From the NCBI GenBank assembly GCA_015061845.1, contig SUVT01000003.1, positions 1 to 64,000 of the forward strand: a stretch of 64,000 bases of DNA, read 5' to 3'. The DNA comes from Lentisphaerota bacterium (GTDB lineage: Bacteria; Verrucomicrobiota; Lentisphaeria; Victivallales; UBA1829). Below, one piece after another: positions 60,443-64,000 of this stretch. Positions within the stretch are counted from its first letter, which is position 1. Each line of letters begins with the position of its first letter. The notes below the pieces were generated by a model that saw only the letters and a list, made by a program, of their open reading frames with translations, was not told the origin of the DNA and did no database searches. A program made the translations under genes and the position numbers.

Positions 60443-61699
60443 TTATCGGATCTGTCCGTTTCCGCGGACTTTGTACTTGTAAACGGTCAATTCATCCAGC
60501 CCCATGGGACCGCGTGCGTGGATCTTGTCGGTGCTGATCCCGATTTCTGCGCCCATGCCGAACTCTCCGCCGTCGGTGAACCGGGTGGAAGAGTTTGCAT
60601 AAACGGCTGCGGAATCCACTTCATTGAGGAACTGTTCCGCTGCAGCGGCGTTGTTGGTCAGGATCGAATCGCTGTGACCCGAGCCGTTGGCATTAATGTG
60701 ATCAATGGCTTCCCGGAGGTCTTTCACAGTCTTGACTGCCAGTTCCAGACAGAGGTACTCTTTCTGCCAGTCGGCTTCAACTGCCGCAACGGAGCGGGGG
60801 ACAAGTGCCTTGAACGCATCATCGGCATGGAACGTGACATCATGCAGAGCCGCATCGATCATCGGTGCAAACTGCGGAAGAACTGCTTCGTTGATGAGCA
60901 GGGTTTCCAAAGCGTTGCAGACTCCCGGACGCTGACATTTTGCGTTGCGGATGATCTCACAGGCCCGCGCTAGATCACAGTCGGAGTCAACATAAATGTG
61001 GCAAACCCCTTTATAGTGTTTGATGACGGGCATGGTTGCCTGTTCCACAACTGCGCGGATCAAGCCTTCACCGCCACGGGGGATCACCAGACTGATATAC
61101 TGATCCATCTTGACCATCATGGAAACCGCCGCACGGTCGGTGCAGGGGATCACGCAAACGGCTCCGGCGGGCATTCCGGCTTTTTCTCCGGCTTTGCTGA
61201 TACATTCCGCGAGTGCAATATTGGAACGGATCGCTTCGGAACCTCCCCGGAGGATCACCGGATTTCCGGCTTTCAGACAGAGAACGGTGGAGTCGACTGT
61301 CACGTTGGGACGGGATTCGTAGATGATCCCGATCACGCCGATAGGAACAGATACTTTCTGGATCAGAAGTCCGTTGGGACGGGTGGTTTCGGATAGGATT
61401 TTTCCAACCGGATCGGGGAGGGAGATCACATGTCTGACACCGTCTGACATGGATTTGATTCTTGCGTGATCCAGTTTCAAGCGGTCGAGCATTGCGGAGG
61501 AAAGCCCTGCTTTTGCGGCTTCTTCCATATCGATTTTATTGGCTGCGATGATCTCAGCTTCGGAGGCATCAATAGCATCTGCCATTGCCTGAAGCCATCT
61601 GTTTTTTTCTTCGGTGGAAGCGGTTGCCAGTTTCCGGGCTGCATTTTTTGCGTTCGCGCCCAGTGTTTCCAGCATTTGTTTCATTTCTGTCTGATCCAT
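60443..61699 (-). CDS. proA: Glutamate-5-semialdehyde dehydrogenase
   Basis: IGVIGIIYESRPNVTVDS, CNALETLLI, ANSSTRFTDGGEFGMGAEIGIST; start trimmed. Confidence 0.95.
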   Translation of the reverse strand: MDQTEMKQMLETLGANAKNAARKLATASTEEKNRWLQAMADAIDASEAEIIAANKIDMEEAAKAGLSSAMLDRLKLDHARIKSMSDGVRHVISLPDPVGKILSETTRPNGLLIQKVSVPIGVIGIIYESRPNVTVDSTVLCLKAGNPVILRGGSEAIRSNIALAECISKAGEKAGMPAGAVCVIPCTDRAAVSMMVKMDQYISLVIPRGGEGLIRAVVEQATMPVIKHYKGVCHIYVDSDCDLARACEIIRNAKCQRPGVCNALETLLINEAVLPQFAPMIDAALHDVTFHADDAFKALVPRSVAAVEADWQKEYLCLELAVKTVKDLREAIDHINANGSGHSDSILTNNAAAAEQFLNEVDSAAVYANSSTRFTDGGEFGMGAEIGISTDKIHARGPMGLDELTVYKYKVRGNGQIR

Positions 61700-61794
61700 A
61701 AATCGTATCTCCATTGGATTTAATCTCAATATCCAAGGAATATAGCATATATTTTCCAAGTGTCAATCTTTGAACCGGACAGAGGGGGATTTTT

Positions 61795-61831
61795 TCAAAA
61801 AAAAAACGCCCGGAGCCAGGCTGCGGGCGTT
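61795..61831 (-). terminator. Rho-independent terminator
   Basis: acgcccg...cgggcgt then long T-run on minus strand, downstream of 61853..62251. Confidence 0.8.
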
Positions 61832-61852: not shown

Positions 61853-62251
61853 TTACTTGAAATCGATATACCATTTCCCATTGATTTTGGAAATGGGGGC
61901 ATCCTTGAGGGTATCTTTAACCATCTGATCAAAATTTCCTTTGTATTTTCCTGAAAGTTCTTTTCTCAAAGATGTGTGCATTTCCTGACAGAAGAGTTTT
62001 TTCATTTCGTGGAGGCTTTTATTTTGCTTTTTTACTAATTGTTCAAACTGTTTTTGTGTGGAAGGAGCAAAACATTCCCACAAGATTTCAGCTTTGTTGT
62101 GATAGGCTGCAAGCATAAAAGTTCTGACAGTCGCCTCTTTGCTGGAAAGATCAGCTTTATAGATTGCCGGAACTTTGGCTCCCTGAGCCATGACGGGGAC
62201 AGCACTTGCGAATCCGAGGATCAGCATTGCAGCGATGAGTTTTTTGAACAT
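61853..62251 (-). CDS. Small secreted protein, member of local paralogous family (NTF2-like fold suspected)
   Basis: Signal peptide; EATVRTFMLAAYHNKAEILWECFAPSTQKQF...INGKWYIDFK. Confidence 0.75.
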   Translation of the reverse strand: MFKKLIAAMLILGFASAVPVMAQGAKVPAIYKADLSSKEATVRTFMLAAYHNKAEILWECFAPSTQKQFEQLVKKQNKSLHEMKKLFCQEMHTSLRKELSGKYKGNFDQMVKDTLKDAPISKINGKWYIDFK

Positions 62252-62320
62252 TTTTCATTCCTTTCTGTTTTTTTTGACAGATTCATTCTGCCGTTTTTTA
62301 CCTCTATTGATTGTTTTTAA

Positions 62321-62752
62321 TCAATTATCCTCTTCGTCTTCTTCCCATTCAAGGTCAATGTACCATTTTCCTTTGATTTTAATGAGTATAAATTCGTCAT
62401 CGTCATACAGATCTTCTATGACTTTATTCATATTCTTTTTGGCAAGATTGATTTCTTTTTTGTAATCCGTTCTCAATTCATAGCAAAACGCCTTTCTGAA
62501 TTCAGCGGGAGTCATTTTTTCTTCAGAAGCATTGCTTTCGAGAACTGCCAGCGTTGTCGGCGCAAAACAATCCCAGAGCATATCTGTATTGCTGTCGGCG
62601 AGCGCAAGAAGAAAGGACTTTATAATCATCTGCCTGGATGAATGATCTGCTTTCTTAGCCGCAAGAACAGTTGTCTGTTTTGTTGTCTGTCCCATGACGG
62701 GGAATGTACAGATACAACCGAGAAGAAGAAAAATCAAAGCTGTTTTTTTCAT
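62321..62752 (-). CDS. Small secreted protein, paralog
   Basis: Signal peptide; MIIKSFLLALADSNTDMLWDCFAPTTLAVL...KIKGKWYIDLEWEEDEEDN. Confidence 0.75.
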   Translation of the reverse strand: MKKTALIFLLLGCICTFPVMGQTTKQTTVLAAKKADHSSRQMIIKSFLLALADSNTDMLWDCFAPTTLAVLESNASEEKMTPAEFRKAFCYELRTDYKKEINLAKKNMNKVIEDLYDDDEFILIKIKGKWYIDLEWEEDEEDN

Positions 62753-62761
62753 AAGATCTCC

Positions 62762-63547
62762 TTATATTTTTTTAGGATGATAATACCATTTTCCCCGGAC
62801 TTGAATAATCGGGGCTTTCTTCAAAAATTCTGCTTTTGCCTTTTCTGCGTCAAACTGATATTTTTCCAGAAGTTTTTCAATTTCCGGTTTGTGTTCATTG
62901 ACAAAATTTTTCTTGATATCGTAAAGATCCAAGCCTTTATTTTTTTCTGCTTTGCGGAGTTTTTCCTGCATTTCGTAAGAAAGACAATCCCAGACAAGAT
63001 CATAGTTTGACGATAACACACCGCTCAGGAAATTATCTCCCAGAGCTGCTTTGCTTGAGTGATTCGCAAGAGATTTGTAAACCGATCCCCGTGATTTTCG
63101 TTTTACCAAAGAACCTTCCAGATCCAGATACCATAAGTTTTCGATTTTTTTGACAGGATAAAGTTTCCCATTAAACATCTCTGCCATGATTTTTTTCTGG
63201 TTGAATTGATGTTTACTCATTAATCTCTGGAAATCTTTATTAAACTTTGCAAAGAAGTCCTTTTTGAATTTTTCCAGATCTCCTTTGGCAGACTGCTTCA
63301 AAATCTTTTGTGTATTCGGGGAAAGACAATTCCAGAAAAGCTCCGGTTTATTATGCATTGCCGCATAGATAACTGCCTTTGCTGTACCTTCTCTTGTGGT
63401 AAGATCTGGCTCATTTGTCTTATATTGCTCTTCTTCCTGATCAGAACATCCTGCAGTGAAAAAAATCATGCAGGCTGCAAGTATTATTGAGAAAATTCCT
63501 GAAATCTTTCTTGGCATATTTGTCTCTCTCCGGATAAATCTTTTCAT
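62762..63547 (-). CDS. Lipoprotein with two tandem copies of the same domain, paralog
   Basis: Lipobox FFTAGCSD; AVIYAAMHNKPELFWNCLSPNTQKIL and FLSGVLSSNYDLVWDCLSYEMQEKL; ends VRGKWYYHPKK. Confidence 0.75.
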   Translation of the reverse strand: MKRFIRRETNMPRKISGIFSIILAACMIFFTAGCSDQEEEQYKTNEPDLTTREGTAKAVIYAAMHNKPELFWNCLSPNTQKILKQSAKGDLEKFKKDFFAKFNKDFQRLMSKHQFNQKKIMAEMFNGKLYPVKKIENLWYLDLEGSLVKRKSRGSVYKSLANHSSKAALGDNFLSGVLSSNYDLVWDCLSYEMQEKLRKAEKNKGLDLYDIKKNFVNEHKPEIEKLLEKYQFDAEKAKAEFLKKAPIIQVRGKWYYHPKKI

Positions 63548-64000
63548 TTTCTGAACGTGTTTTGGAAGTCAATGTAATTCTTATTGTCTTTGGTCACCCA
63601 ACTTTTTCCGATGTCTCTTCCAACAGCATTGACCAATTCGTCCATATCCTCTTCCACTTCATAAAATTTTTCCAGATATGATTTTCTTAAATCATTACAG
63701 ATTTCCTGCTTAAATTCGTTCATATCTTTCCCCGAATATTTTGCTGAGTCTTCCAGAATTTTCTTCGTATCATCAGAAAAACAGATCCACATGATTTCCG
63801 GTTCGTTATTGATCACTGCTTGAGTGAACGTTCTAACAGTTCCTTTTTTCGTGGAAAGGTTGACTTTCATCTTTTTTTCTTCAGGAGATTCTGATATATT
63901 TTTTTCAGAAGGAAAAATCATATTCCTTATTTTTTTATAATGACGTTTCACCATAATGATGCCGGAAAGACATACTATAATCAGAATGCCTGTGATAATT
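63544..64000 (-). CDS. Paralogous family member, N-terminal membrane segment (5' end beyond window)
   Basis: Frame remains open upstream of ATG 63954 to base 64000 encoding IITGILIIVCLSGIIMVKRHYKK; GTVRTFTQAVINNEPEIMWICFSDDTKKIL. Confidence 0.7.
   Translation of the reverse strand, partial: IITGILIIVCLSGIIMVKRHYKKIRNMIFPSEKNISESPEEKKMKVNLSTKKGTVRTFTQAVINNEPEIMWICFSDDTKKILEDSAKYSGKDMNEFKQEICNDLRKSYLEKFYEVEEDMDELVNAVGRDIGKSWVTKDNKNYIDFQNTFRK

Follow-up and report, generated by a model that had tools for sequence, protein, structure and literature searches.

Organization of the locus

The window analysed here comprises the first 64,000 bases of a contig of 64,292 bases from a Lentisphaerota bacterium (genome G000). 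At its right end, on the minus strand and adjoining proA, lie four consecutive genes (61853-64012 on the contig). A domain of about 100 residues occurs once in three of them and twice in gene 3, which makes five homologous copies. Gene 1 (P0001, 132 aa; 61853..62251), the closest to proA, consists of a signal peptide and one domain. Gene 2 (P0002, 143 aa; 62321..62752) has a signal peptide, one domain and an acidic tail; the presence of LLGC within the signal peptide makes a lipobox possible. Gene 3 (P0003; 62762..63547, an ORF of 261 aa) carries a lipobox (TAGC) and two domains, the first at 63098..63427 and the second at 62765..63094. Its likely start is at 63517, which is favoured by the presence of a ribosome-binding site and yields a normal lipoprotein signal. 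Gene 4 (P0004, 155 aa) has an N-terminal transmembrane (TM) anchor and one domain; it extends from 63544 to about 64012 (L006:4012), of which 63544..64000 are in the window, the final 12 bases including the start codon lying beyond its edge. The initial annotation stated that the array continues past this edge. When the contig was extended rightwards and the members counted, no more than four genes were obtained: the contig stops at 64,292, and apart from the start of gene 4 its last 292 bases contain just an unrelated ORF, a C-terminal part of 66 aa. As these bases hold no fifth member, the four genes and their five domains are the complete array on this contig.

The flanking gene (60443..61714, minus strand), which we take from its sequence to be proA (glutamate-5-semialdehyde dehydrogenase), is a housekeeping gene outside the system. 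On the minus strand between gene 1 and proA, a hairpin followed by a T tract, resembling an intrinsic terminator, is found at 61808..61821 (L006:1822-1809). A promoter-like site for proA (TTGACA-16-TATATT) is located at 61739..61766 (L006:1767-1740) and separates this gene from the array. Another promoter-like site (TTGTAA-16-TATATT) is located upstream of gene 4. All these promoter- and terminator-like sites were identified by consensus alone, and the region does not contain clearly more of them than expected from shuffled sequence. The four genes look like a single transcription unit that ends at a terminator ahead of proA.

A family of exported domains

The relationship between the domains was analysed with profiles. 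With the profile made from genes 1, 2 and 4, gene 3 is matched twice (E 9e-20 for its first domain, 2e-14 for the second), so that the window domains form one family. The same profile matches further members in other parts of the genome, the weakest at E about 1e-11, and P0001 alone as query matches P0002 at E 5e-21. These values establish homology and exclude a chance motif. In the alignment, the domain signature consists of a near-invariant Trp after two helices and of a C-terminal GKWY strand. The pattern described in the initial annotation holds as far as four consecutive homologous minus-strand genes are concerned, but the motif is looser than was stated: in the five window domains, the C-terminal strand is NGKWYID, KGKWYID, RGKWYYH, ENLWYLD and DNKNYID, and the Cys of the middle helix is missing from both gene 3 domains. 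An intramolecular disulfide between the Cys of the WxC motif and that of the middle helix was considered and rejected. The first Cys is retained where the second is missing (gene 3 domains, and C153, C162 and C16 elsewhere in the source genome), which argues against a strict Cys pair.

The initial annotation was right that the anchors differ: signal peptide in genes 1 and 2, lipobox in gene 3, TM segment in gene 4. This diversity extends to the whole family. The N-terminus is intact in 43 genes, and every one of them has an export signal, called by regular expressions and hydropathy and not by SignalP; they are distributed as follows: 15 with a lipobox, 26 with a signal peptide or TM segment, and 2 with a zinc ribbon and TM segment. 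The number of domains per gene ranges from one to four (44 genes). We take the domain order of the zinc-ribbon genes (G000:C16 and G098:C42) to resemble that of TcaA/YvbJ-type proteins, made of a zinc ribbon, a TM segment and an extracytoplasmic NTF2-like domain. Unlike in these proteins, the order is restricted to 2 of the 44 family genes, neither of them in the window, and the zinc-ribbon match is under the cut-off (19.7 vs 30.3 bits). The class of architectures combining a zinc ribbon, a TM segment and an extracytoplasmic NTF2-like domain has been described (PMC3924330).

Relation to DUF4878 and predicted structure

No Pfam or NCBIfam model reached its cut-off on the window proteins. P0001 scores 12.6 bits (full protein) and 13.8 bits (domain) against DUF4878 (PF12870), under the Pfam curated cut-off of 24.1. 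A scan of 66 members gave weak matches only, most commonly to DUF4878 (E <=0.1 in 7 of 66, best 0.0014). When the family profile was aligned with hhalign to a DUF4878 profile made from 14 such domains found in the same class, the match was at 96.8% (E 3e-10, score 54.7, 94 columns); among the controls, 100 column shuffles reached at most 15.9, and the scores of reversed profiles were about 10. The link with DUF4878 is thus established by the match between profiles, no single sequence being above the Pfam cut-off. PDB profiles match weakly (best E 0.006); most of these matches are to NTF2-like proteins and cover the N-terminal helices.

Solved structures of DUF4878-type domains are NTF2-like folds found with the same range of anchors, and an extracellular ligand-binding role has been proposed for these DUFs (PMC3924330). 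Our family shares with DUF4878 a small exported domain with N-terminal helices and a conserved C-terminal K-x-x-G-x-W strand, the lipobox, signal-peptide, TM and zinc-ribbon architectures, and a profile-profile alignment over the full length. It differs from DUF4878 in that the tested members fall under the Pfam cut-off, that its model has helices in place of the middle strands and no NTF2 sheet, and that domains occur in tandem, up to four per gene.

The AlphaFold2 model of the P0001 domain, computed from nine sequences (pLDDT 94.9, pTM 0.85), predicts five helices (10-22, 26-31, 35-48, 52-72 and 79-89) and one beta-hairpin (92-95/98-101), without the sheet or cone which forms the known NTF2 pocket. 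Both gene 3 repeats are modelled with the same fold, the first one without aligned relatives, and are joined by a low-confidence linker; the models cover the window proteins and close sequences from related loci. Using Foldseek, we found no PDB match to the P0001 domain model at E < 2.5, and no PDB or viral match to the one- and two-domain models at E < 0.5. A known solved fold was discarded, matches being at chance level for both models. The NTF2-like (DUF4878-like) fold suggested by the initial annotation is therefore half confirmed: hhalign supports the relationship against its controls, but no NTF2 cone is predicted: the model checked with Foldseek lacks the cone-shaped alpha+beta architecture with curved sheet and cavity. 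From the profile alignment and the model, we infer that the domain may keep the N-terminal helices and the last hairpin of an NTF2-like layout, with helices substituting for the middle strands. This would represent a possible change of fold between two families of detectable homology, in which an NTF2-like alpha+beta domain became mostly helical.

Distribution of the family

In a search of the order, the class and a sample of the phylum, the family numbered at least 70 domain copies; our collection comprises 71 domains in 44 genes. The family occurs in 15 genomes of the class Lentisphaeria, which represent four genera and two families within one order. The family is present in all three genomes examined of the source genus, among them the neighbour genome G001, a Lentisphaeria MAG obtained from roe deer cecum; the other three genera belong to a second family of this order. 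No member was found elsewhere in the phylum sample. The count of 15 genomes leaves out G179, whose candidate C78 (E 1e-4) resembles an ordinary NTF2-like protein and was left uncounted. These results define, in poorly studied gut bacteria, an uncatalogued and lineage-restricted family of this size, which is a remote relative of DUF4878, probably altered in structure. Viral contigs, phages and plasmids yielded no relatives with P0001 or close relatives as queries, a search from which distant members could escape; as none of the three contained relatives, a mobile or phage origin was not retained.

Other members of the source genome include two single-domain lipoproteins (C153, C162), the zinc-ribbon and TM version (C16) and a secreted two-domain protein beside two secretin genes (C19); on C46, a polysaccharide deacetylase gene has a family member on either side (L070:6207-8953). 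Tandem clusters are recurrent: six adjacent genes in G087:C72, three in G098:C8 and three in G001:C3. The last gene of the G087:C72 cluster appeared NTF2-like by eye, an impression which we abandoned as no Pfam match says so. The succession of two secretin genes (Pfam Secretin) and a two-domain member is found in both G000 and G001 (L028:2260-6313, L030:5707-9777), and secretin genes beside this C19/C105 gene are, as far as seen, local to genus g1. In genus g30, one member occupies a syntenic position, with a putative glycerol-1-phosphate dehydrogenase-like gene on one side and a small TM protein on the other (L073, L077, L078 and L068, the dehydrogenase-like gene being visible in L068 only as part of an unresolved ORF). 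At this site G095 carries two tandem copies, one TM-anchored and one lipoprotein. Apart from such genus-level synteny, no conserved partner gene recurs across genera or loci.

Copy turnover and selection

Local amplification, another proposal of the initial annotation, is supported. Local duplication is frequent in the family, and copy number and location differ between sister species. Beside the same proA, G001 has two copies resembling gene 1, and its two-domain gene is a different one. G002 contains a different gene and no array at this place, and its counterpart of gene 3 is present at another locus (G002:C74). In the phylogenetic tree, each gene 3 repeat pairs with one G002:C74 repeat (100/99 and 99/97), and the window domains group weakly with other copies of the source genus (90/53). 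The C19 protein and proteins from the other family have their second repeats in one group (98/96); no equivalent grouping is resolved for the first repeat, and many deeper forks are unresolved.

Gene 1 and the gene at the same position in G001 are 89% identical and differ by 15 nonsynonymous and 2 synonymous changes (dN/dS 1.83). In the same comparison, the nonsynonymous and synonymous changes are 0 and 32 for proA, which has 100% amino acid identity with G001, and 0 and 33 for a NIF3-like gene (Fisher P 9e-11 for gene 1 vs proA). Neutrality is not rejected for the gene 1 pair (P = 0.33). Older paralogs, at dS about 1.2, have a dN/dS of 0.20, and the C19/C105 pair 0.31; such long-term values of about 0.2-0.3 indicate constraint. 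The diversifying selection suggested initially is thus favoured by the ratio of the one syntenic pair, but not by the neutrality test or by the distant paralogs. The substitution counts of this pair are suggestive of relaxed or diversifying evolution and fall short of proving positive selection. Of the 28 places in 11 genomes where family members occur, 7 are at most 500 bases from a contig end, compared to 1.0 expected (P 5e-5), as would be the case if assemblies break at strain-variable or repeated loci; this excess hints indirectly at strain-level structural variation at the family loci.

Possible functions

We propose, as a reading with an even chance of being correct, that the four genes constitute a separate cassette of tandem paralogs which places one binding module across the envelope, this module being a helical DUF4878-type derivative that binds a ligand non-catalytically. 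The cassette would be transcribed separately, as a single transcript, and the module of about 100 residues would be delivered free to the periplasm by a signal peptide, to a lipid anchor, or to the inner membrane by a TM segment. As a remote and mostly helical derivative of DUF4878-type NTF2-like exported domains, it could bind a small molecule, a peptide or an envelope polymer outside the cytoplasm, as has been proposed for these domains; the location would be periplasmic instead of surface. The copies would arise by tandem duplication, then be lost or relocated between species, and diverge. In favour of this proposal, the domain order of G000:C16 and G098:C42 repeats a DUF4878-type architecture. 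Against it stand a model without NTF2 sheet, the lack of a solved-structure match and of a recurrent partner gene, and the fact that no conserved pocket or ligand was identified. By analogy with DUF4878, ligand binding in the envelope is the most likely function of the family.

Exported tandem paralogs with copy turnover between sister species could also constitute an envelope immunity or decoy array, in which distinct exported toxins of gut competitors are neutralised by one copy each, copies being gained and diversified along with changes in the toxins. The 15 nonsynonymous vs 2 synonymous changes of the syntenic pair next to fully conserved neighbours, and the over-representation of copies at contig ends, agree with such an array. 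We consider it quite unlikely: the neighbours of the clusters, inspected by eye, include no recognisable toxin gene or secretion effector, neither PADLOC (best E 0.034) nor PHROGs gave a convincing match, PADLOC and neighbour inspection revealed no known anti-phage defence or immunity family and no cognate toxin nearby, and the long-term dN/dS reflects constraint. Pressure from the host or from phages on a surface lipoprotein array might likewise explain lipid-anchored and secreted tandem paralogs, their differences in copy number and their raised replacement rate, with a logic like that of the Staphylococcus aureus lpl cluster. The latter is also a tandem array of paralogous exported proteins (PMC4470592); the likeness is one of description, and the anchors are mixed here. 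However, a clear lipobox is present in only one of the four window genes, the zinc-ribbon and inner-membrane versions point to periplasmic sensing, and phages and viral contigs contain no relative, which leaves a surface array decidedly improbable.

A mostly relaxed expansion, with duplicates of little individual function drifting where duplication is frequent, is compatible with the dN/dS near or above 1 of the close pair, for which neutrality is not rejected, and with G002 having no array at the same locus. It is nevertheless an unlikely explanation, given that the frames are all intact, that the W and GKWY motif is retained across genera, that paralogs at dS about 1.2 show a dN/dS of 0.20, and that single-copy loci are syntenic across genomes. 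Beyond the proposal of a non-catalytic binding cassette, we regard as speculative, and rather doubtful, that the helical NTF2-derived fold serves gut Lentisphaeria as a fast-turnover, multi-anchor system of envelope recognition, in which gain, loss and diversification of copies would follow changes in the ligands (for instance toxins, phage or host molecules). If copy turnover does track outside pressure, the family would mark an interaction interface of these bacteria.

Two minor features were observed in the source genus. A second, divergent proA is present (G000:C119:23833-24735, G001:C118 and G002:C38, with 42-44% identity in G001 and G002). Near the C19 member, the contig end (L028:1-750) is occupied by repeats of a unit of about 40 codons (RERAKKRFFRKVISLRTQAQKN).
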